Shown here piece by piece: positions 28,083 through 43,000 of a DNA stretch of 64,000 nucleotides. How positions within the stretch are numbered: the first letter of the stretch is position 1; each line of letters begins with the position of its first letter. The notes under the pieces were generated by a model. The model was not told the origin of the DNA. It searched no databases and saw nothing but the letters and a program-made list of their open reading frames with translations. Both the position numbers and the translations under genes were made by a program. Origin of the DNA: Gracilariopsis chorda (Eukaryota; Rhodophyta; Florideophyceae; Gracilariales; Gracilariaceae); the NCBI GenBank assembly GCA_003194525.1, contig NBIV01000114.1, positions 62,001 to 126,000 of the forward strand, given 5' to 3'.

Positions 28083-28312
28083 TGTTGTTAAACGGAAGGT
28101 AGAGGCGTTGTGGACGAAGGTGCCACTAATTTTTTGGGTGTGCAAGGTGCTTGCTGCCTTCCCCTGAAACGGTGAATCCACAAGCGTAAGAGGTGCGCAT
28201 TTATGCGGGCGCTATGCTCAGCTTCCATGCTGGAAGCTGGGCAGCGCCCAATTAAAAAGGTGCAAATATAAAACATATCCAACCAACTCGTGTGCACCAC
28301 AGGCACACGACA
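28083..28312 (-). repeat. Solo LTR, reverse orientation, related to the adjacent Ty3 LTR
   Basis: Read on the minus strand it starts TGTCGTGTGCCTGTGG and ends TTTAACAACA, with the same interior order as the intact element's LTR: the cagcttccagcatggaagctg palindrome, a cataaat block and a cttg.gg.ttcac block. It has no internal domain attached. It differs at many positions from the 28338 copy, so it is a diverged relative, about 230 bp long. I saw no target-site duplication at its ends. Confidence 0.75.
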
Positions 28313-28337
28313 CCTTTAATGCAACTCCGACGCTTTT

Positions 28338-28602
28338 TGTCGCGTGCCTGTGGTGCACACGCATTGATCTACATATAGTTTTTATTCTGCACAACTTTAT
28401 TGGGCGCTGCCCAGCTTCCAGCATGGAAGCTGAGCATTGTGCCCTCATAAATACGCGCCTCTCACACTTGCGGCTTCACCACTCGGAGGGGGAAGCAGAA
28501 AAGCAACCCGCACACCAGAAAAGTCCGTGGCCCTCCCTTCGTCGCCATCATCTGCACCCCCACAACAACAACGCGCGTCCTCCCCCGTTTCCTTGCGCAA
28601 CA
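28338..28602 (+). repeat. 5' LTR of the complete Ty3 element
   Basis: 265 bp, TG...CA ends. It contains a 21-bp perfect palindrome centred on the block cttccagcatggaag and an A+T-rich promoter-like segment (acatatagtttttattctg, about 28371). A run of ccccca/caacaacaa occurs near the 3' end. Target-site duplication copy ctttt is at 28333-28337. Confidence 0.93.
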
Positions 28603-28637: not shown

Positions 28638-31600
28638 ATGGCCACTAAACTAATGTTTGACCGTGAAAGCGTCGAGGTTGCAAAGTTCTTTTTTCTACTT
28701 CGAGAATGTGTTGATGAGAGGTAAGCCTGAAGATGAAAAGTCCACTGAGCTTCTCTGTCATCTTGAGGGAAAAGCCTTTAACTACTACTATAACACCTAT
28801 GCAGCTGATGGTGTATTGCTTCCTGCAGCAGATGACTACCAGGCCGTGAAAACCGGGTTCTTCAAAGAGTTTACAGAGAATGTCGGGCCTCAAGAATACA
28901 TCCGAAGAGCAATGATGTGTAGATTACGCCCTGTTGATACACTGGCATCTCTTCAATAGATGGATACCTGCTTCAACAAAGCTAGATTCAATATGGAAGC
29001 CAAGTTTGGACTGCTAAGGAATGCAGTGACCGAATATATGGACATGACACAGTTCGTTCTTCTTCGTGGTGTTACTGACTACAATTCTCTGAAGGCAACA
29101 ATCAGAGACTTTTTGGCTTGCCGAGAAACTCTAAACTCTTCCTTCAGTGCCAGAACGCCACTTGGTACGGAAAGATCTGAGAGAAGACGGGTTCTTCGCC
29201 GACCAGAGCAGACGGTGCAGAGCCTGGAGTCCAAAATGGAAGACTTGACGGACAAGCTTGCACATCTCACACTACTGGTACAAAAGAAGCAAAGTGACCA
29301 AAGTGTTGACGGAACTGTGAGAACTTGTTCTTTCTGCCAAAAGCCAGGACATGGCGCCAACAGGTGCCCCTCAAACCCACACCGTGACACAAGATGTGGG
29401 CGCTGTCATAAGCTTGGACATTCTGAGGCTACGTGTTGGTCCCGGTCCCCTATTGAGAAAGAAAAACACGTTCGACTTGCGGAAGCAAACGTCGAATCCA
29501 AGGCAGAGGAACCTCTGAGAAAGAGGATTCCTCTACAGGATGCAGAGGCCACTGCCGCACAGGTCACTGTAGTCACCGAAGAACAAGAAGAGGATCCTGT
29601 GGTGGCAACGAAACGTGGTCCAGATGGCGAAGCACTTCCTAAGCAACCAAGGACCTCAAGGGTTGATATCGGCTCACTGCTAAACCCGAAAGACCAACTT
29701 CCATCTACAAATTCTAAAGGTATAATAGACCTAACCAGCCCAACGATGTACAGAAAACGCAGAAAAGTGGCTTCACGAAGGAAAGGTGCGAAAAAGAAGC
29801 CAGTAACCAGAGCCAAACAATCAATTCCAGAACACGTTGGAAGGTACAATGTCTTAATAGAGCTCGCTAATGCCTCTTGCGGACTCAAATTCGGCCAGTT
29901 GCTACGTGGAGACGCCGAGGAGGCCAGACGCGAAATTAGAAAGTTGTTCGAAAAGGGAACCACCCCACGAAAGGTAGCAGCGGTGGAAACCGGGACCAGC
30001 CGGAGGAGACTTAAGGTAGTAACCGTGAAGCTATACGGTACGACAGTGCGTGCACTGCTCGACTCTGGAGCCGTACCCAACCTTTTATCCACGAAACTAT
30101 GCGAACGGCTGACCCTCTCTCCAGAACCTAGTGTAAGGAAGATTAAGGTCGCCAATGGGACTTCTTCCACAGTTCGAGGGGTCCTTTGCGACGTCCCTGT
30201 TGTCTTTGGATATTCAAGAGTCACATTGAACTTTCTCGTTGTAGATGACCCCCCCGTTGATGTCATAGCTGGTTGCCCAGTGTTAGAGGAAGTAATGGCT
30301 TGCATCGATCTTGGGAATCAAACCGTTTTCGTTACTATCGACGGGGTAACATCTGTGTTAGAACTAGAGTATAATCAGAGAATTTCTGAGTTATTAGAAT
30401 CCGAGACTGATAGTGAGGATTTCACGTCCGACTCGGACCTTGTTCCGTTATCATCGAGCTCAGAAGAAGAGAAAGATGACCTGGTACTGTCCGTGAGAGA
30501 CGTCGAACCGTTTGAGCCGGACCTCTCAACTGCAGAGGAAGCTGAAGGACTTCCAGATCTCATCGAAGAAGATGCAGAAGAAGAGGAATACGGTCACGAC
30601 CAGGAGATCATAACCATGCAAGACCACGACGATGATGATGAGAAATCCCTACTTCTCGCAGCAAAATTGAGACATTTACCGACAAAGATTCAAAAAGAAT
30701 TCATGAAGATGCTAAGAGATGAAAATCTCGCAGCCTGGTCCCTAAATGAGTTGCGTCCTTGGGACGTGCCAGTGAAGCACTCTTTTGAGCTCAAAGATAA
30801 CAACCCAATCCACTACCCTGCAAGGCGCCTCTCACCACGCCATAATGACCTCGTCAAAGCAGAAATTGATAATATGTTGAAGACAGGTATCATTACGCCC
30901 GCCACCTCAGCATGGTCCTTCCCGATCGTCATAGCCACTAAGAAAGATGGCAAGCCACGATTCTGTGTGGACCACCGAACGCTCAATGACAGGATGAAGG
31001 CTGATAGATGGCCTCTCCCGAAGATTGAAGAGATATTTGACGATCTAGAGGGAGCCAACGTCTTCACCACACTAGACCTTTTTTCCGGATATTGGCAGGT
31101 CCGGGTATCGGAGGATTGTAAGGACGCCACCACCTTTGTTTGTAGATTTGGCACGTACAAGTTCGAAGTAATGCCGTTCGGACTTATGAAAGCGCCAGCC
31201 AAATTTCAGCGGATGATGGATGTTGTCCTTAGAGGATTGAAGTATGCTCGGGTATACTTAGATGATTTCGTGATATATTCGAAATGTATAGACGACCATC
31301 TGACACATTGTCAAAGTGTGTTCGCTCGCATCCAAAACAATGGTTTGAAATTGAAAGTGACAAAGTGTAGTTTCGCCCAGGCCAGAGTCAAGCTATTAGG
31401 ACACATCGTGGACAAGACAGGAGTTCATGTAAACCCAGAGAAAATCGCAGCCATACAGAAGGCCCCGAGCCCCTCGTCGACAACGGAACTTCGAAGCTTT
31501 CTTGGCTTAGCGGGGTATTACAGAAGATTCATTCCAAATTTTGCAGAAGTGTCAGCCGTTCTTCATGAAGCCACATCGTCAAAGAAGCAGTGGAGTTGGA

Positions 31601-33330
31601 CTCCGGAGATGCAGGATGCATTTAACCATCTTAAGAACAAAATGATGTCACCCCCTGTGCTTACATTCCCAGACTTCAATCAACCTTTCATAGTAGAGAC
31701 CGATGCCTCATCGATGTCACTGGGCATCGTACTATCACAAAAGAAGGAAGATGGGAAGATCCACCCTATTCAGTACGCTAGCCGCACTATGAACAAGGCT
31801 GAACGGCGGTACTCCACATGTGAGAGGGAAGCTCTAGCAGTAGACTTTGCTCTCAAGAAGTTTAGGGTGTATCTCTTGTCATCAATGCCCTTCACACTAA
31901 TCACTGATCATCAGGCGTTACAGTACGCTTTTCGAAAGAAAGATATCCACGGTAGACTAGCCAGGTGGATGGACCTTTTGGCCGAGTATGACTTTAAGAT
32001 TCATTACCGAGCCGGTAGCAGTAATCAGGCCACGGACTACCTTTCTAGAATTGACATACCGGAAACGGTGAGAGAGGGAGATTTGAGTCTGGTCGTACAG
32101 AATATCACGCTAGACAACGACCTTGAAGACGAGTTGGTGGCTACAAAAAGATTTCTTTCTGGCGTGGAAATAGGAATTGAAGACGCACAACGAAAATGCA
32201 CAATTAAAAGGAACGCAAAAGGAATCATTGTTTGGAATGGAAGGCTCATGAGGAGAACATCAAAGGGATTGCGATCGATCCCCTGCCGAAATGACAGAAA
32301 AGTGACCTTAAGAGCCTTTCACGACGACATCGGTCATTGGGGAATAGACTCTACCAGGAGTTTCGTATTGGAAAGGTACTGGTGACCGAAGATATATCGT
32401 GACATCCTGGACTATGTGAAGAGCTGCAACGGGTGTTAACGAGCGGTAGGCATTCCGGCGTATAAAACTGGCCTAAAGTTTCCCTTGACTGGGCTCTTTC
32501 ATGTGTTTTCCATCGATTTTGCGGGACCACTACCTCCATCCCAGAAGGGAAATCGATTCATACTAGTATGTGTGGAACACGTGACAGGATGGCCGATTGC
32601 TCGAGCCACTGGAACGGCGACGACCCAAGTAGTTATAAAATTCATACGCGAAGAGATCATACAGCCATTCGGTCTTCCCAGGTTCATTATATCTGATAAT
32701 GCAACCTGTTTCCGAGCTAAAGCACTGAAGGAATTCATGAAAGAAAAGGGTATCACGTGAAAAACGGTACTCGCTTATGCACCCATGTCAAATGGGAGAG
32801 CAGAACGGATGGTTGGTACCCTGAAGAGTGCGATAGCCAAAGAGGTTATCCAAGGAAATAAAGAATGGGACATAGTTCTGTCAAGAGTGCTTTACGGATA
32901 TCGAAGACGCCAGATGGTAGATAGGAAGTCCCCATTTGAGCTACTATATGGTACAGAACCACGAATGAACAACCACGAGCCCGTCGCGCTTGTTGCTCAC
33001 TACAGCAGTATCCACAGGAGACTAGAGCTAATGGACGCGGAAATAGGTAGAGCAACTCGTGCCTTACGCCAGGAAGAAATTCAGCGTGACGAAAGCAGAG
33101 TAATTCGCTTCAACGTTGATGACGAAGTACTCGTAGCAAAAGGACAAGCACTCAACGCCAAGAAGAAATGGGCTCTATTTGAGTCCTGGTTCTACGGCCC
33201 CTGCCGAGTAATAAGAGCATCTCACCCACGCTATGTTCTAAGTAGCTCGCATCGAAGGGTGTCCCGAGATCCTATACACGCCAGACGGCTGGTATTATAC
33301 TATCGACGTCCTGCTCATCTGCAAGAGTAG
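28638..33330 (+). pseudogene. Gag-pol polyprotein of the complete Ty3 element, disrupted
   Basis: Gag starts at ATG 28638, 36 bp after the LTR. A T-run at about 28687-28694 shifts the frame by one; from there a single frame runs to the TAG at 33328. Domains: capsid region (28.7-29.2 kb); two CCHC knuckles, CSFCQKPGHGANRC (about 29329) and CGRCHKLGHSEATC (about 29398); protease LLDSGAVPNLLS (about 30055); RT with YLDDFVIYS (about 31255); RNase H with ETDASS (about 31697); integrase finger H...C (about 32320-32436), core DFAGPL (about 32515), SDNATCF (about 32692), the Glu in NGRAERM (about 32790), then a C-terminal domain. In-frame stops: TAG 28957, TGA 32383, TAA 32437, TGA 32758. Gag and pol share one frame, so the original probably made one polyprotein. 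Confidence 0.92.
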
Positions 33331-33484: not shown

Positions 33485-34075
33485 TCAATTACCGCTTTCG
33501 ACTTCATCATGGGGCAAGTACTTGATGGAACTTTCACCTGGGTCTTTGCGATAAGCCCATACATGACTACCGTCCGAGAACTGAACGGGATAAGGAAACT
33601 CAGCAAGAGCTCGGCCACCTAATTTAGTTGCAGAAGACATGACTTGGCGAACCTTCTTCTCTCCGGCCACGATAGGTACCATTACGGCATGAAATTGAGG
33701 GTCATCTTCCTTCCGATCAACGAGGCGGGAGCTACTAGAACGTCTCGTAGGACCTTTGCCGGCTGCACGGTGAACTGGAACAGGCTCGATTATCACACGA
33801 ACCTCGCCCAAGGTAGCCTGAGGGAGAGCAGCGGAAGCTCTGAAAAGTTCCGGCTCATGGCGATAACCACCTCGAGTAGTTCTGGTTGGCGGCATCTGCA
33901 AGGCCCCACGACCTATCGGAGGGACGATACCAATGGCATTGTCACCTTGCTCGACATGCGTGCCTCTACCAACGGACGTGTAGGGATCTTGAACCCCCCG
34001 GAAGCGAGTATAATGTTCCCTTAACTCCGGGCAAAGGCAATCAAGGCCAGTAGTTTCATCACGGGATTGACTCAT
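33485..34075 (-). CDS. Antisense ORF 3 of the Ty3 element, unrecognised
   Basis: A 196-residue minus-strand frame starting at ATG 34075, between integrase and the 3' LTR. The C-terminal 70 residues (QFHAVMVPIVAGEKKV, FPYPVQFSDGSHVWAYRKD) look like a folded domain with mixed hydrophobic and charged residues. The N-terminal half is Arg/Pro-rich. I recognise no family. It is third in line after two other minus-strand frames, in the same frame as antisense ORF 1 but a different one from ORF 2, so splicing or separate translation would be needed. The opposite strand has no matching long frame. Confidence 0.5.
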   Translation of the reverse strand: MSQSRDETTGLDCLCPELREHYTRFRGVQDPYTSVGRGTHVEQGDNAIGIVPPIGRGALQMPPTRTTRGGYRHEPELFRASAALPQATLGEVRVIIEPVPVHRAAGKGPTRRSSSSRLVDRKEDDPQFHAVMVPIVAGEKKVRQVMSSATKLGGRALAEFPYPVQFSDGSHVWAYRKDPGESSIKYLPHDEVESGN

Positions 34076-34409
34076 GATTGGAAGAACTTATCTAAACGAA
34101 CTGGTGACTTCGGTGAAGGGAAAAACTAACGCAATCATCTCTTGAACAGCTCTTATATAGAAGAGCGTTGCAAAGCGAGTGAAGACCACTTTGTAGTTAT
34201 GTCTACACCGGAGAAAAGCCTCACGAAGACAAGATATATGCACAGAAAGAAGAATCATTTGTTGGGCTGGAAGGAACACCATACGCATAGGAACTATGAG
34301 GACAATTCACTTAGTCTCGGCGACCTTTTGGACAGAGCTGACGGACCTCAATGATCTTCGAATACCGGGGATGACCCCCAGCGACTAAGAAGAGGGAATC
34401 CTTACAGAG

Positions 34410-34841
34410 TCACAAGGGATGGCGCTCTGCAATATCCAGTATCATTCGGCGACGTCCATCGACCGCGACCAAATGGTTAAAGCGGGATGAAGCATGACGG
34501 GCATCATACAAGATACGCACGAGGTAGTAGCCAGAAGTCACGTTATCCCAGGCGGAGAAGTTCCGAAGCTCGATAGAAGTTTTTCGAAGCTCAACCTTAA
34601 AAGGGAGCCTCGTCACGAAAGAGCTCATCTCCCACAGACTCGCGAATGTAGTAGGATTCGTCTCGAAGTACTCGGACAGCCTGTTAGCATCCTCTCGGCC
34701 ACATGTGGCATCTATAATATTCAGGAGGGCTGCTTGCATACACTCGCCATCGTTACTGTAGTGCAATACATTCCCGCGTACGGGCGATGGTGAAACTCAT
34801 ATCTGAGGTGTACTCGGCGCGAGCGATGAAGCGGGATGCAT
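34410..34841 (-). CDS. Antisense ORF 2: small cysteine-peptidase-like protein (broken by one stop)
   Basis: From an ATG at 34841 the frame has one TGA (34797-34799), then is open to 34410, giving about 118 residues after a TTG at 34766. The open part begins with SNDGECMQAALLNIIDA and ends with FNHLVAVDGRRRMILDIAE. A Cys at the start of a helix followed some 80 residues later by His and then Asp on paired strands is the layout of papain-like/C39-like cysteine peptidases (N/D-G-x-C ... H-x-V-A-V ... D). The match is to the general pattern, not to a named family. If real it could be a polyprotein-processing or deubiquitinating-type protease carried by the retroelement. Enzyme activity is inferred only. 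Confidence 0.5.
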
Positions 34842-35257
34842 GAATATTAGCCCCCGTTTACTGGGCTAATTAGCGGTCGGGTTACCCAGGGTGGTTATGG
34901 GAACATTCATATTTTGTGGTACTTGCCTGGCAAGGATGGTGGACACGGGGCTACAGCCCCGGCCAGGGGGCCCAAAATGGCTACTTATTTTAGTGTAGTT
35001 TAGGGGTTAATTTTGCTTAGGCTAGTGCACTACCTACTGTACTGCACTGACCTAGTACTTGAGCGTCGGCCGCACGACGGCGAGCTCACGAAGAAAAAAA
35101 AAAACCGAGTTCGGCTCTGACTCTATTCGCTATGCGAAGTGTCTAACTCCTCGCGGAGGTACACCGCTTGCCCGGTAGTTTCACCCGACTCGCACCACCG
35201 AGGAGACCGTGCTCGTCGTACCCAGTGGGTTGTGACCACTCGTGGTATTCATTGTTG

Positions 35258-36412
35258 TCATGTGACCGCCCGTACAGGCCCTATCTCCGCCCCAGTTTTG
35301 GGTATTGATATTACCGACGTGTGTCGTGAGACCGTGAGACCATCTCTTCCCCTCATATCCCCTAACCGCCGCGCGGTGCGTGTTCGTGCGTGTGTATCGG
35401 CACCCTCCTCCGGGGTCTGTTCCCGCTTTCCGCACGCCCCCGTCGGGTGGTCCCTTTTCCTCTTTTGTTCCCCTGCTCGCAGGCTACTTCCGTACCAGCC
35501 GTGGTTCCGACCCGTTCTAACCCCTAAACCTCCGAGGTACATCCAGGCTCCCGACGGAGTTACACCCGTCATACGGGACACGGAGGGCTCTACCCAGCTG
35601 GGCCTACCTCTCCAAGAGAGCAAGGCTTCGAGCTGCCTTGGGTGCCTTTCCCACACCGGGATTGCACCACAGTTACTGCGAGTGTAAATACGACGCTCGT
35701 CTCGTATGTTGAACTCCAGCAAACGAGTATCCAACGGGCGCGCCCCTGAGCCTTGAGAGATGGAAACAGCGAACCCGGGATTCGCTTTGCACCATTCGAT
35801 GATCAAATTACGGCAGTCTCTACCATCGATATCAACGCCAGATCCCGGAGCAACAGGCGGACTAGGCGTATGTCCACCCTTCGCAAGATTCTTCTCGGCG
35901 GTCGCCATCGGAGGAATACGAAAAGCCGGGTGAAATAAAGTCGTGTCGAACATCTGCAGGGTCCATATATCAATCACCTGAAATCCGGAGAGTCCAACTT
36001 GTCTTCCAATTGCTCCCCTAAACTGTCCCTCAACGAATAGTATGCGGTGTACTTCCCATCCGGAGTGGCGTGAGCTCGATCTCGCAGAGTTGGATATTGA
36101 GGGGGCATCGTGGGCATGCGCCGAAGAAGAACCAGATTTGAAAGGAGCAGACCTTTCTCGAGGGGATCGATTATTACTCGCATCAGAGTGATGCGACCCC
36201 TTCTCTTGATTGGCGACGCGAGACGTCGGAGCTGGCACGGAGCGTAGTCGCGGAGACATCGGCAGATTTCTCTTCCCAGCGAACGATTTTATGGGGGCCT
36301 TTTGTCCTTGAGGGCTCCGTTTGTGTCGAGTTGACGGTTTGGATATCGATTTGCTAGGTCCTTGTTGCCGACGTTGTTGCTTACGTCGAGCGTTTTAGCC
36401 ACCTTTTTTCAT
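35258..36412 (-). CDS. Antisense ORF 1 with basic N-terminus (broken by one stop)
   Basis: The first Met of the 333-residue open stretch is at 36259. The frame extends upstream to ATG 36412 through one stop (TAA, 36397-36395). The extension is strongly basic (ARRKQQRRQQ followed by Lys/Ser/Pro-rich residues), as in nucleic-acid-binding tails of capsid-type proteins. Residues after about 65 look globular (VHRILFVEGQFRG, GFQVIDIWTLQMFDTTLFHP, NLIIEWCKANPGFAVSI). The last third (about 35600-35258) is low-complexity Arg/Gly/Thr and may not be coding. A TATA-like box lies 230 bp upstream at 36642-36649. No family is recognised. Confidence 0.5.
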
Positions 36413-36641
36413 GGTTTCTCTTCCTACTCGAACACTTATCCCTCTTCTATAACGTTAGTGTAGATTGATTTTGGAGGCGTAAGGGTCGCAGGAAGATATT
36501 TCCAAGGGTCGTTGCCTAGTCGTGTAGTTTACTTTCGGCTTAGTACCTAGTCACGCTAGAAGCGTTTTCGGTGTGGTCCGGTATCCGCTCGCGCTTGAAG
36601 GTCGCCAAGCGAGAGAGCACGGAACTTGGAGGGAGGGCCTG

Positions 36642-36649
36642 TTATATAG
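36642..36649 (-). promoter_or_regulatory. TATA-like box for antisense transcription
   Basis: The minus strand reads ACTATATAAC, the only clear TATA box between the 3' LTR and antisense ORF 1. It lies inside the element, about 40 bp from the 3' LTR, and points toward the three minus-strand frames. Function is inferred from motif and position. Confidence 0.45.
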
Positions 36650-36678
36650 TGCTGAAACGCCGCCCGGGGCGGCGGTTT

Positions 36679-36690: not shown

Positions 36691-36955
36691 TGTCGCGTGC
36701 CTGTGGTGCACGCGCATTGATTTACATATAGTTTTTATTCTGCACAATTTTATTGGGCGTTGCATAGCTTCCAGCATGGAAGCTGAGCATTGCGCCCGCA
36801 TAAATACGCGCCTCTCACACTTGCGGCTTCACCGCTCGGAGGGGGAGGCAGAAAAGCAACCCGCACACCAGAAGAGTCCGTGGCCCTCCCTTCGTCGCCA
36901 TCATCTCCACCCCCACAACAACAACGCGCGTCCTCCCCCGTTTCCTTGCGCAACA
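36691..36955 (+). repeat. 3' LTR of the complete Ty3 element
   Basis: Same length and ends as the 5' copy. It is followed by the ctttt duplication (36956-36960), which marks the junction between the TE region and the gene island. Confidence 0.93.
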
Positions 36956-36960
36956 CTTTT

Positions 36961-37729: not shown

Positions 37730-38665
37730 TCAGTAGAGCCAAATATTAGCAGAACAGTCACCAGAACAAGAAGTAAAGGATCTGTTGGTGGGATTATGTG
37801 CGACTTGAATAACTGAGTTATCATGGGCTCTAAAGTTGGTAGATTGGCGCATCATGCGCAAATCCCAGATGTGAACATGGCGATCCCGACTGGCCGCAAT
37901 GACCCAGTGTCCGTTCGGACTGAAAGTGGCGGACAGAACATAGTCAGTAGCGCCGCTCAGGGTTATAGGACAGGAGACGGATGAGCTGGGCATGGATAGA
38001 TCCCAAATATTAATGGTGCGATCGAATGAGGCTGATAGTAGTAATCGTGCATCCGGAGAGTAGGCTACGTCGTACACTTGCTGGTCATGTCCGTGGAAAT
38101 GGCGGGTGAGTCGGTTGGCGGTTACATCCCACACGCGGGTAACGTTGTCGAACGACCCGGCTGCGACGTGCTGAGAGGAAGGCGACACGGCTACGGAGGA
38201 CACGCTATCGGTGGGGCCATACTTGTTTGTGAGCGTTTGCAGGCGAGTGCCGGAGTGCAGGTCCCACAACATGACGTAGTTGAGCGTGGATGCAGACGCA
38301 ATGAATCGGTTATCAGCGGAAACGTCCACACAATGCACGTCCATTCCATGTCCAAGCAGCGAGTGCTGGAGCGTGCAGGAGTGCAAGTTCCACACCTTGA
38401 ACGACTGCCCTTCCGAGCCGGTAACCAGCTGCTGTCCATCGGGCGAGAAGCAAAGCGAGCGCACGTAAAAGTGCTCGTGCTGCGGCGCGGAACGCTCCTT
38501 ATTGGTGGCGAAGCGGAACAAGCGCCGTCCGGAAGCGGCGTCGAATACGTGCGCAGAGTTGCACGTTCCAAGCGCAACGTACTTGCCGTCCCAGCTGTAG
38601 CACACGGACGACACCACCGTGTCGAACGCCAGGCCGTGTTGCAGCTGCACGGCCAGGTCCAGCAT
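37730..38665 (-). CDS. Tup1-like WD40 repeat protein
   Basis: A 311-residue protein made almost wholly of WD40 repeats, about seven blades. It opens with VVSSVCYSWDGKYVALGT.NSAHVFDAASGRR and continues with YVRSLCFSPDGQQLVTGSEG.SFKVWNL, a pattern specific to the Tup1/Groucho-like propeller. The last blade ends SGDCSANIWLY, close to the Tup1 C-terminal SGDC.ARIW. Tup1-type proteins recruit histone deacetylases and repress transcription in the nucleus. Fungal Tup1 has a long N-terminal helical tetramerisation region, absent here, so either the protein works as a bare propeller or an upstream exon is missing. The start at 38665 is only 66 bp from the divergent trithorax gene. An ortholog of another WD40 repressor cannot be excluded. 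Confidence 0.8.
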   Translation of the reverse strand: MLDLAVQLQHGLAFDTVVSSVCYSWDGKYVALGTCNSAHVFDAASGRRLFRFATNKERSAPQHEHFYVRSLCFSPDGQQLVTGSEGQSFKVWNLHSCTLQHSLLGHGMDVHCVDVSADNRFIASASTLNYVMLWDLHSGTRLQTLTNKYGPTDSVSSVAVSPSSQHVAAGSFDNVTRVWDVTANRLTRHFHGHDQQVYDVAYSPDARLLLSASFDRTINIWDLSMPSSSVSCPITLSGATDYVLSATFSPNGHWVIAASRDRHVHIWDLRMMRQSTNFRAHDNSVIQVAHNPTNRSFTSCSGDCSANIWLY

Positions 38666-38731
38666 GACGCGCGGCAGCTCCGAGCCGCTTCACAGCGCGC
38701 GCGGGGGGCGAAACGAAAGCGGCGGCGCCAT
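38666..38731. promoter_or_regulatory. Divergent promoter, TUP1-like / trithorax
   Basis: Sixty-six bases of G+C-rich DNA separate the two start codons, so the promoters must overlap or the 5' untranslated regions invade the neighbour. If the trithorax start is downstream (next Met near 39052), the gap is about 390 bp. No TATA box was seen. Confidence 0.5.
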
Positions 38732-41700
38732 ATGCAGCGCGTGTGCGACAGCAGCGTCCATTCCCGCACAACACGGCTCACGCTGTGCGTCTACCTACGT
38801 AACGCCAACGGCTGCGCTTTCCCCCCCCCCCAACCGCCGGCTAAACCGACCGTGGTAGCCGCACCGCTTCAAGCTCAACTGCCGTTACGTGTAAAACGCG
38901 CCAAATTGGCAACATCCAAAACGCAACTCATCTTGTTGCATCCCGCCCCCAGCCATCGCAAAAACATACATACCGAAGCTACGAAGGTAGTGCAAGCGTA
39001 CTGCGCATCTGCCTGCCCTTCCCCGAAACGACCTCCATTCCTCCCAGTCCCCATGCAGCCAAATCAACCTCCTTCCCAACACTCCGTTCACCCGTTCCCC
39101 CACCCCCCACCACGAGCACCCCCACTATCACAACCACCGTCACCGCCACCACTACCACCGCCACCACTACCACCACCACCTCCACCACCGCACCACCAGC
39201 AACAACAACCACAACGACAACAATCAAATCCTCCAACACAACCTCTAATCCCCTTTTCCCGCTCCACCAAAGGATCCAAGCGAGCGCGCATAATCTCTTC
39301 AACAACCGACACAAACAACCCAACAAAGCGACCAAAGCTCCCGAAACCGCACCAAACGCCGTCCTCTACCAAGCCCGCACAAAACAGCTGCATTTTCTGC
39401 GCCCAGCCCGGCGACATTCGACAATGCGAGGGCAAGCTATTCGGGCCCTTTCGCTCGCCAATCAACCTCAACAACGGCCGCACAACCTTCCACGCCCACC
39501 GCAACTGCGCGCTATGGGCCCCTGAGGTGTACGTAGACGACGCCGGCAACATGAAGGACGTGCACGTCGCTTTGAAACGAGCCCACAAGAAAAAATGCTC
39601 CATCTGCGCTGCATCTGGCGCCTCTCTTGCTTGTTCATTTCGCGGCGCTGCTTGTTGTCGCCCCATGCACTTCAGATGCGCTCTCACCGAGGGCGCCAGG
39701 CTGTTGAACGGATACAAGGTCTTCTGTACAAAGCACTCAAAGCATTCCAAAACTTCAAAGGAACCCCCTCCCACGCCGGATATGTACCTCGATCGAACCC
39801 CTGTAGGTGAAGAATACATCACCCCGGAATTTGGTTGCCCCTTCTGTACCTTCGATTCTTATGACGTGGATCGAGGCGCCCTGCTCACCTGTAGCGTTTG
39901 TCGCATGCGCTCGCATTCCAAGTGCGTGCTTCACGCTGTTGAAAAGGACGGTCCTTTTGCTGCCCTTTCTTGGAACTCAGCCTTCTTTTGTAAGAGTTGT
40001 ATGCTGTGCCCAACGTGCGCCAAGCCCGTCGATTCTACCGTTTACTCATCCGATCTCGCCAATGAGAATGAGCAATGTGACAGCCTCAAATGTCATGTTT
40101 GTCGCCACTTCGCAACGCACATATCATGCATTCCGCCCACTGCAAACCCTGAACGATGGCGTTGTGACGCCTGTCGAATATGTCGTCATTGCAATCTCGC
40201 CAACATCCCCATAGACAAGTGGAATGAACACTACGAAGCTTGTCCCGAATGCGCCATGGAGATTCGCAATGCAGGCGTTGTGTGTCCTGTTTGTAACCGC
40301 GTTTATCGCGAGTATGAGAACCTTCCGATGATTCAATGCGATTATTGTGACAAGTGGATTCATGCTGATACCTGCGGCGGCATGAGCATGGCCCGCTTTG
40401 AGAGAATAGGAAACAGCAAGGAACGATATCGATGCCCAATATGCACCTCTGAGAAGAAGAAGAGTGGCCTTAGCAAACGACGCCCATCAGCATCCTCCGA
40501 CCTCTTGGATCTGCCTACCACCATGAAAGAGCGCAACAACCGTTTCGATCTCGAGGCGTTTCTGGCGCAGATGAGTGCGCAGAGTGAAGACGGGGTTGTG
40601 TTTAACGTGGTTACTAAGGCGTCACATCACGCCGCAGAAATGGCTACAATAGGAGAGCAAATGGGATTGGGATCTGATGTATGTCGCCAGTGTGGTTCTA
40701 GGGGGGATGAGCATTCTTTGTTATATTGCACAGACTGTGGAGAATGCTACCACACTTATTGCCGTGGAGCTTTATCTCAGTCTCCATTTCTGGGTAAAGG
40801 AAAACCCTTGATGAACGCCTTGTTACTCAAACACGATGGCGGTCTACGCGCTGGCAAGCTAGGGGTTTACGCTGCTGCATGGCGATGCGTCCGCTGCGAA
40901 AGCTTTGCAAATCTACCTGTACAAAGTCCCGATGTAGACGTGCCTCCAAAGAAGATGAATGGTACCGTGGCAAAGCCCCAACAGCCTATCAGCACTTTCG
41001 AACAGCCACATGTAGAGGAGCTTACTTCTACGGATCCGGATAGACCGTTCGTTCGCAAGAGAAAGAATGGCGCGCTTTCACAGCCGCGTGCTTTGGCGAT
41101 GACAAGAGGGGATCTACCTCCGATATATGAACCGGTGCAATGGGTCGATAAGAGAAAATGTTGTCTTTGTTCCCGTGCTGAGGCGCCTACGGGGCGAGAG
41201 GGAAGGCTTCTTCCGTGGGCAAGCAGCACTGTGTCGGATTCGTCGAGTATTTGGGTACATGCCAGTTGTGCCATGTTGTCCAAAGGCGTCACTCTTCATC
41301 GCGTTTTGGCAACTCAGAAAGTCAGCTTGTTTGGTCTGCGGAAGAACATTGTAGGGCAGGCTCGTCGAACTAGCTGCGCGTTCTGCGCTGAGAGTGGTGC
41401 ATCTCTCCGGTGTTCTGCCCCGGGCTGTGTCGCTGCCTATCATTTTCATTGCGCTCAAGACGTCGGTGTTCCTTGCGTATTGCGAAGCGTCCCCGTACAC
41501 GGTAAAGCGCCTTCTGGTGGGCGTGGGACGGGGAAGGCGTGTAAGGAAGAGAAAATACCAACCTCGGTGCTTCAGCGTTTTTTGGTGTTTTGTCCGAAAC
41601 ATGTGACTGAAATGAAGAAAGCTGGAGACGACCACATGGCCATCAAAGATGTTCACTTGACTTTTAGCATGGATACAGTGATTAAGGTGCTTGATCGACA

Positions 41701-43000
41701 GGGGTTCGTTCCTGATGGCGTACCGCTACGAAAAAAGCCGCTTTCCGCCGATAGGATGCTCAGCTTACGTATAGGTTCCCTAACGGTATTGAGGTTTGGG
41801 CAACTTGTACCCGAGGTGAATGATTTCATCGTCAAGAAAAGTCTTGTGCCTTTGGGATATTGCGCTGCAAGAATGTTTTGGTCCATCTTGAATCCAGGGT
41901 ACAGATGCTTGTACTTTTTCGAAGTTTGCGGACATGCCCAGTCTGGTCCTTGTTTTGTAATACGCTGTAGTGATGCCCCTGAATGGAGAATAGACTCGGA
42001 TTGTCCTGACAAGGCATGGTCTAAGGTTGTGAAAATGGTGAAGAGCGCCAGGGAGAAGGCGGGCATGAGAGAACAATCCCACCAAGGAGTTCGGACAAGT
42101 GGGTTAGAGGCATTTGGCCTGCTGAATTGTATTCCAGTTGTGACGCATATCGAATCACTCCCGCTCGCCTCGATGTTCAATGGAAGGTACCTTCACAAAC
42201 GTGTCGTCACTCACAAGAACAAAGAGATCATTTTCTACAACTCGCTGTCCAAACGGTACTCACCCATCAAAACCGCAATGTGTCGGACGGGTTGTTCCCG
42301 CACCGACGGATTCTTGCCGAATAGATGTGTAAGTGGTATCAAACAAAGCGGCAGAAACCGCATCCCAACGTACTGGAATATGCAAACCGGTGCGGCGTTC
42401 CAGCTGGAAGTTGCCCGAGAAGCGATTGCCCGAAAAGAGCAACCGCACGTCGAATCAGATCAACAAGCCAAGATGGGATATAGGAACCGTACTGGCAAAA
42501 GAAACGCCAAAACAAGATCGACCCCACATCTGCCTGTTGCGACCGAACACCAAGGCATTGCAGAGTCTTCGAAACAAAGAACAGTTGTACTGCGATCTGA
42601 TATCGATGGATGGGGTGTTTTTGCAACCAAGGATATTCCAGCTGGACAAATGATCATCGAGTACGTCGGCGAAATCATCAGGCCATCTGTTTCGGATTTG
42701 CGGGAAAGCAAGTATGTTGACAAGGGAATCGGGTGTTACATGTTTGAGATTGTTCCCGGCGAAATTGTGGATGCGACAATGTGTGGAAATGCGGCACGGT
42801 ACATTAATCACAGTTGCGCTCCCAACTGTTACTCGAAGACAATCAAGATTGACCAGGGGAGACATGTCGTTGTGATCATTGCGAAGCGAAGGATTCAGAG
42901 AGGTGAAGAGCTATCTTATGACTACAAGTTCCCCCTCGATGACTCTGACAAGGTGAAATGCGGCTGCGGTACCGAACAATGCAAGGGATTCATGAACTAA
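38732..43000 (+). CDS. Trithorax/MLL-type histone H3K4 methyltransferase
   Basis: About 1422 residues from ATG 38732; the frame is open further upstream but there overlaps the TUP1-like gene. Order: Pro/Gln-rich N-terminus (to about 39340); extended PHD (CIFCAQPGD...CTKH, 39389-39740); PHD fingers at about 39835-40010, 40085-40205, 40280-40445 and 40680-40905; second extended PHD (CCLCSR...CPKH, 41158-41602); FYRN (LRIGSLTVLRFGQ, about 41765-41930); FYRC (about 41945-42220); SET (42600-42945) with YVGEII, RYINHSCAPNCY and GEELSYDYKF; post-SET C.C....C at the end. The catalytic and S-adenosylmethionine residues are intact. This class tri- or dimethylates H3 Lys4 at active genes within a COMPASS-like complex. 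A C10 run near 38821 sits in the unconserved N-terminus, so the exact start is uncertain. Confidence 0.95.
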   Translation: MQRVCDSSVHSRTTRLTLCVYLRNANGCAFPPPQPPAKPTVVAAPLQAQLPLRVKRAKLATSKTQLILLHPAPSHRKNIHTEATKVVQAYCASACPSPKRPPFLPVPMQPNQPPSQHSVHPFPHPPPRAPPLSQPPSPPPLPPPPLPPPPPPPHHQQQQPQRQQSNPPTQPLIPFSRSTKGSKRARIISSTTDTNNPTKRPKLPKPHQTPSSTKPAQNSCIFCAQPGDIRQCEGKLFGPFRSPINLNNGRTTFHAHRNCALWAPEVYVDDAGNMKDVHVALKRAHKKKCSICAASGASLACSFRGAACCRPMHFRCALTEGARLLNGYKVFCTKHSKHSKTSKEPPPTPDMYLDRTPVGEEYITPEFGCPFCTFDSYDVDRGALLTCSVCRMRSHSKCVLHAVEKDGPFAALSWNSAFFCKSCMLCPTCAKPVDSTVYSSDLANENEQCDSLKCHVCRHFATHISCIPPTANPERWRCDACRICRHCNLANIPIDKWNEHYEACPECAMEIRNAGVVCPVCNRVYREYENLPMIQCDYCDKWIHADTCGGMSMARFERIGNSKERYRCPICTSEKKKSGLSKRRPSASSDLLDLPTTMKERNNRFDLEAFLAQMSAQSEDGVVFNVVTKASHHAAEMATIGEQMGLGSDVCRQCGSRGDEHSLLYCTDCGECYHTYCRGALSQSPFLGKGKPLMNALLLKHDGGLRAGKLGVYAAAWRCVRCESFANLPVQSPDVDVPPKKMNGTVAKPQQPISTFEQPHVEELTSTDPDRPFVRKRKNGALSQPRALAMTRGDLPPIYEPVQWVDKRKCCLCSRAEAPTGREGRLLPWASSTVSDSSSIWVHASCAMLSKGVTLHRVLATQKVSLFGLRKNIVGQARRTSCAFCAESGASLRCSAPGCVAAYHFHCAQDVGVPCVLRSVPVHGKAPSGGRGTGKACKEEKIPTSVLQRFLVFCPKHVTEMKKAGDDHMAIKDVHLTFSMDTVIKVLDRQGFVPDGVPLRKKPLSADRMLSLRIGSLTVLRFGQLVPEVNDFIVKKSLVPLGYCAARMFWSILNPGYRCLYFFEVCGHAQSGPCFVIRCSDAPEWRIDSDCPDKAWSKVVKMVKSAREKAGMREQSHQGVRTSGLEAFGLLNCIPVVTHIESLPLASMFNGRYLHKRVVTHKNKEIIFYNSLSKRYSPIKTAMCRTGCSRTDGFLPNRCVSGIKQSGRNRIPTYWNMQTGAAFQLEVAREAIARKEQPHVESDQQAKMGYRNRTGKRNAKTRSTPHLPVATEHQGIAESSKQRTVVLRSDIDGWGVFATKDIPAGQMIIEYVGEIIRPSVSDLRESKYVDKGIGCYMFEIVPGEIVDATMCGNAARYINHSCAPNCYSKTIKIDQGRHVVVIIAKRRIQRGEELSYDYKFPLDDSDKVKCGCGTEQCKGFMN

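Follow-up and report, generated by a model that had tools for sequence, protein, structure and literature searches.

What is encoded by the minus-strand reading frames that lie between pol and the 3' LTR of a Ty3/gypsy retrotransposon in the red alga Gracilariopsis chorda, and are they a peculiarity of this one element? We analysed a window of 64,000 nucleotides (assembly GCA_003194525.1, contig NBIV01000114.1, positions 62,001 to 126,000 of the forward strand), for which an original prediction had proposed an antisense cassette of three frames inside an element bounded by matching LTRs and a 5-bp duplication. Coordinates given below are those of the window.

Two opposite-strand genes in a dead gypsy element

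The host element is a dead Ty3/gypsy LTR retrotransposon that bears two extra genes on the opposite strand. As predicted, its 265-bp LTRs (28338–28602 and 36691–36955, plus strand) match each other, with 12 differences, nine of which are transitions, and a 5-bp duplication, CTTTT, flanks both ends of the element (28333–28337 and 36956–36960). The plus-strand gag-pol remnant (28654–33330) is interrupted by stops, leaving the frames 28654–28959, 28960–32385, 32440–32760 and 32761–33330, and contains an aspartic protease, a reverse transcriptase (RVT_1, E 2e-28) with RNase H and then an integrase, so that LTRs, target duplication and domain order all agree with the Ty3/gypsy class. The interval of ~3.3 kb between pol and the 3' LTR contains the predicted minus-strand frames (33485–36394). 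An inverted fragment resembling the LTR of this element (28170–28278) is located immediately ahead of the 5' LTR. Next to the element, there is a plus-strand frame of 1651 aa (38045–43000) with PHD-type fingers, FYRN, FYRC and SET, which resembles trithorax/MLL proteins and whose start is overlapped by a minus-strand frame (37730–38689) that appears WD40-repeat-like by eye.

The cassette had been read as three frames of about 390, 144 and 196 residues. The third of them is an intact 196-aa gene, ORF-B (33485–34075, minus strand; coding 33488–34075, stop 33485–33487), but the first two are halves of a single gene, ORF-A (34314–36412, minus strand), so that there are really two genes, one of them split by a nested solo LTR. 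In addition to this insertion, ORF-A is interrupted by two stops: its N-terminal piece (35672–36412), which has a basic start, contains one in-frame stop close to its start, and its C-terminal piece (34314–34756) contains one close to its end. The latter piece includes the codons of three conserved residues, a Cys (34740–34742), a His (34473–34475) and an Asp (34434–34436). The segment at 34757–35671 is a solo LTR, 915 bp long and derived from another element, that is flanked by a GTTAC duplication (34752–34756 and 35672–35676) and has inserted into one antisense gene, cutting ORF-A in two; it has at least 33 further matches in the genome at 96–98% identity, and about 138 residues of the 378–390-aa frame described originally are read-through of this LTR. 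A genome search with positions 33485–36650 (91.3 Mb, 1081 contigs) yielded at least 46 matches, with 40 of 321 candidates scored, and at least six other loci join 33485–34758 directly to ~35665–36650, without the nested LTR, at 86–95% identity. Copies of the nested LTR are also found in pairs, 10.5–10.7 kb apart, on contigs C4, C5, C24, C38, C53 and C184.

Both genes are open in the natural copies on C417 and C25, where they encode proteins of 393 aa (ORF-A) and 196 aa (ORF-B) and are separated by ~235 bases. Counted by eye, close copies of ORF-A (at least 53% identity) are present at 25 loci and copies of ORF-B on 24 contigs; at 23 of the 25 ORF-A loci, ORF-B is found on the same contig, in the case of C58 at a distance of 5 kb. 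All matches to ORF-B in the genome search were associated with the gypsy family of the host element. Based on coding evidence and anatomy, ORF-A and ORF-B almost certainly constitute a two-gene antisense accessory region that is situated inside the LTRs and directed towards gag-pol.

Selection on the antisense genes and their putative promoters

Both ORF-A (393 aa) and ORF-B (196 aa) show the evolutionary pattern of protein-coding genes. When C417 was compared with the second-subfamily copies C394, C64, C2 and C138 (Nei-Gojobori method, stops skipped), dN/dS was 0.12–0.15 for ORF-A (dS 1.24–1.30) and 0.24–0.28 for ORF-B (dS 0.86–0.99); two pieces of the integrase, compared between C417 and C64, gave values of 0.23 and 0.17, and a third, 8 codons long, yielded none. 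Among the six possible frames, none but the antisense frame is uninterrupted in C417 as well as C64. The differences between these two copies at codon positions 1/2/3 number 70/66/190 for ORF-A and 48/37/81 for ORF-B, and the antisense frame has the lowest pN/pS of the six (0.28 for ORF-A, 0.41 for ORF-B). The sense frame that uses the same third positions has a pN/pS of 0.38 (ORF-A) and 0.47 (ORF-B) but contains 10–13 stops per copy. The remaining comparisons with C417 gave dN/dS values of 0.23–0.50 for ORF-A and 0.21–0.95 for ORF-B, the upper value being that of C199. Pairs within the second subfamily reached 0.36–1.12 (ORF-A) and 0.64–1.18 (ORF-B), as expected because copies decay after their insertion. 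Relatives of ORF-A from other element families showed values of 0.34 (C42/C170), 0.26 (C5/C43), 0.32 (C75/C159) and 0.21 (C369/C82), with higher values for the close pairs C369/C227 (0.63) and C2/C177 (0.71) and saturation for C75/C369. In line with the proposal that the element retains an antisense unit, the region is present in other copies of the family, its frames are open in some of them, and synonymous change is in excess.

The broken state of the copy in the window, together with the finding that its longest frame is in part a chance read-through of the nested LTR, could be taken to mean that the antisense frames are merely fortuitous openings in dead repeat DNA. However, the existence of open homologues with low dN/dS and of a genome-wide family argues against this explanation, whose probability we consider negligible; the dN/dS values and the six-frame and codon-position test rule it out. 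It is also conceivable that the antisense RNA rather than a protein is the product, limiting the element itself through the formation of double-stranded RNA, a type of role that has been discussed for other elements (PMC7264820). This idea is already disfavoured by the strong selection at the amino-acid level and the third-position bias of the antisense frame, making it very unlikely.

The minus-strand TATA-like box that had been claimed at 36642 is indeed present (TATATAA, 36642–36648), 236 bases ahead of the ORF-A start codon, and another TATATAA motif (34153–34159, minus strand) is located 84 bases ahead of the ORF-B start codon. The ORF-B box recurs at position -83/-84 in all nine aligned copies, which represent both subfamilies. 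The ORF-A box is found 235–236 bases before the start in 5/5 copies of the first subfamily, that of the element in the window (the ATG itself is missing in C300), and its position reads CTACATA in 3/3 copies of the second. Three of seven relatives checked in other families, C75 (copia), C42 and C170 (both gypsy), have a TATA box 196–220 bases before the first Met, and none was detected in the 107 to 877 upstream bases examined for C5, C369, C227 and C2:762.6 kb. The background frequency of the motif, averaged over the window, is 0.13 per 330 bases of one strand. The boxes ahead of ORF-A and ORF-B may represent active promoters. Just upstream of the ORF-A box, at ~36658–36675, there is a GC-rich palindrome (CCGCC...GGCGG), which is retained, with some changes, in aligned copies of both subfamilies.

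The ORF-A family in gypsy and copia elements

Rather than being a peculiarity of one element, ORF-A belongs to a protein family whose genes immediately follow pol, in antisense orientation, in several families each of gypsy and copia elements in this genome. Distant matches to ORF-A, with 23–30% identity mainly over residues 204–387, occur at many loci. In each of the first nine of these loci that were fetched, the gene lies antisense behind pol, with five representing copia elements (L061, L065, L066, L067, L068) and four gypsy elements (L062, L063, L064, L069); the class of pol was determined with Pfam for L061, L065 and L067 (RVT_2) and for L062 and L064 (RVT_1 with RNase H), and it was assigned by similarity for L063, L066, L068 and L069. 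The use of other family members as queries recovered the same family, which comprises at least 167 loci (266 matches merged). A coordinate test identified a pol match in tail-to-tail orientation within 3 kb at 105 of the 167 loci (60 gypsy, 45 copia); one locus (C170:164865) showed only a same-strand pol match ahead of the gene, and for the other 61 the pol lists that were consulted contained no match. A recheck of 153 loci against the pol matches that had been left out revealed no additional arrangement, and sequence inspection uncovered a tail-to-tail pol at ten further loci, C170:164865 among them. In total, 115 of the 167 genes are oriented tail-to-tail behind pol, other arrangements were confirmed at none of the loci, and 52 loci are unplaced. 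Six of the latter were inspected at the sequence level: three genes have no pol in the 1.0–1.5 kb behind them (C109, C58, C79), one is cut by an insert (C46:112200), one is a fragment (C112), and the sixth, on C439, is described below. In the one copia copy in which the LTRs were checked, pol and the antisense gene lie between two 266-bp LTRs that are 99.6% identical, and AACTT borders the element at either end.

Viewed from the side of pol, a relative of ORF-A is located behind 39 of the 42 gyC pol matches (at least 61% identity) and behind 23 of the best 27 copia pol matches (E at most 1e-110), so that in both sets most copies of the family carry the antisense ORF. For 91 further gypsy pol matches, about half identical, none of the 153 rechecked ORF-A loci lay within 3 kb, a comparison that relatives too diverged for the queries would escape. 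The ORF-A gene marks some element families, not all, and given the many gypsy pol matches without a nearby relative, it does not appear to be needed by all elements.

Contig C439 harbours an open 424-aa relative of ORF-A (C439:5221–6493; L071:1222–2493, minus strand) that retains the Cys, His and Asp residues, with no pol remnant in the 3.7 kb behind the gene; it is possibly a domesticated or an ancestral stand-alone gene. A regular spacing of LTR-element genes (~6.76, 6.72, 5.68 and 6.35 kb) was observed on C638, C1064, C677 and C43 as well as on C573, C883 and C509, which suggests head-to-tail arrays of LTR elements or assembly collapse.

The copia rows do not form one clade in the ORF-A tree (84/89), although tests of their monophyly did not reject it (p 0.146, 0.198, 0.234); both an exchange between the superfamilies and a capture from one source would fit the distribution of ORF-A. 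Independent invention in copia and gypsy elements would not fit, since the proteins are homologous and occupy the same slot in the same orientation.

A candidate thiol enzyme and its possible role

Six residues of ORF-A (C251, H340, D345, I351, D353 and E356) are invariant in 12/12 aligned relatives, nine of which are distant and share 19–24% identity with ORF-A. The relatives also have in common a W-x-I/V-E-like region, and several of them possess basic N- or C-terminal tails. In papain-like peptidases of clan CA, the sequence order is Cys, then His, then Asp/Asn, an order also seen for the invariant residues C251, H340 and D353; in OTU proteases, likewise, Cys precedes His. A single-sequence model of the truncated C-terminal piece in the window, of low confidence (pLDDT 52.7), shows a helix with the Cys near its start, two further helices and four strands, placing the His on one of the strands and the Asp at the margin of the strand that follows. 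The Cys-His-Asp order and the modelled succession of helices and strands suggest a papain-like thiol peptidase, and we infer that ORF-A may be such a peptidase or a deubiquitinase-like enzyme; that it is a catalytic thiol enzyme of some kind appears moderately probable. No relatives of ORF-A were found in Pfam, PDB, phage and IMG/VR searches, and no peptidase match emerged from Pfam, PDB or fold searches, the last of which were uninformative. A scan of 12 relatives with an E cut-off of 10 gave no match to the OTU and Ulp1 families of Pfam or to the TRP28 (transposase 28) domain. The peptidase-like protein of the original prediction fits the C-terminal half of ORF-A with its invariant Cys, His and Asp but lacks a library match, and the capsid-like N-terminus has neither evidence nor a Pfam match in its favour.

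Antisense genes in the slot between pol and the 3' LTR are already known from plants and fungi. PMC7264820 and PMC11963269 describe such ORFs in Grande (gene23), RIRE2, Retand (ORF4, with TRP28), PvRetro13 and Boty and report that a separate upstream promoter and a nuclear role have been proposed for the Grande/Retand type. ORF-A resembles this class in position and orientation and in that most copies of a family carry it, so that the parallel drawn with some plant gypsy elements stands, but it is set apart by its Cys-His-Asp signature and by having homologues in Ty1/copia elements within one genome, and, in contrast to Retand ORF4, it has no TRP28 match in Pfam. By analogy with Grande gene23 and Retand ORF4, ORF-A could regulate the element from within the nucleus without being a catalyst, whether in transcription, in RNA export or in the import of the pre-integration complex into the nucleus, with the Cys, His and Asp serving a structural purpose. 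The shared slot and strand, the basic tails and the lack of a peptidase match in any library are in keeping with this possibility, whereas the invariance of C, H, D, I, D and E at 19–24% identity is compatible with a catalytic site, and the gene is common to elements with unrelated Gag and Pol; on balance, we consider a purely regulatory role somewhat unlikely.

Alternatively, the peptidase-like residues and the location of ORF-A next to the integrase end of pol could point to a maturation protease or a chaperone for Gag/integrase that complements the aspartic protease. However, the gypsy family already has an aspartic protease of its own, and such a factor would need to serve the unrelated Gag-Pol proteins of copia and gypsy elements, which renders this role improbable. 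Two systems provide partial parallels. According to PMC5408684, bdelloid rotifer ORF3 types (GDSL, DEDDy) are common to LTR and Penelope-like elements and thus, like ORF-A, represent one type of accessory ORF in unrelated classes of retroelements, but they are expressed from spliced messages, whereas ORF-A is antisense, encodes a different protein and occurs in copia and gypsy elements. Similarly, OTU and Ulp1 cysteine-protease domains are reported in PMC2836005 for Ginger, Helitron and Mutator transposons, showing that a cysteine-protease-like part can be carried by transposable elements and setting a precedent for a host-directed thiol enzyme; ORF-A differs in lacking a Pfam match to these domains and in being a separate antisense gene instead of a C-terminal domain of a transposase. 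Literature searches, which covered chiefly titles and the openings of abstracts, with subscription papers mostly outside, did not retrieve a homologous antisense gene common to copia and gypsy elements.

A putative promoter of its own may drive the transcription of ORF-A in integrated copies without any need for the LTR. Its basic tail, suggestive of a nuclear location, could mediate entry into the nucleus. Because the gene is shared by elements whose Gag and Pol are unrelated, it would more probably act on a host factor, such as a component of the silencing, ubiquitin or SUMO pathway, than on a protein of the element. ORF-A may then act in trans as a counter-defence/counter-silencing or licensing factor, with ORF-B as a presumed family-specific helper. 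We put forward the host-directed role tentatively, rating it below an even prospect; the broader picture, drawn from sequence, of an antisense accessory region with a nuclear, thiol-peptidase-like ORF-A that has its own promoter and a host target seems about as probable as its opposite. It is more speculative, and in our estimation rather unlikely, that ORF-A represents a mobile antisense module, i.e. a separately promoted nuclear counter-defence gene of the thiol-peptidase-like type that was exchanged between copia and gypsy elements within one lineage and left the gene on C439 as a stand-alone remnant. Kept backwards behind pol, such a module could be expressed while the LTR is silenced.

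Collectively, these findings reveal one protein family with an enzyme-like signature that occupies the antisense slot in two superfamilies of a single genome. If ORF-A did move between copia and gypsy elements, it would represent a rare trade of an accessory gene across superfamilies in this slot. A recognisable family with such a signature makes the function of antisense genes testable, and its presence in two unrelated classes of elements suggests a common tool that is used inside or against the host.
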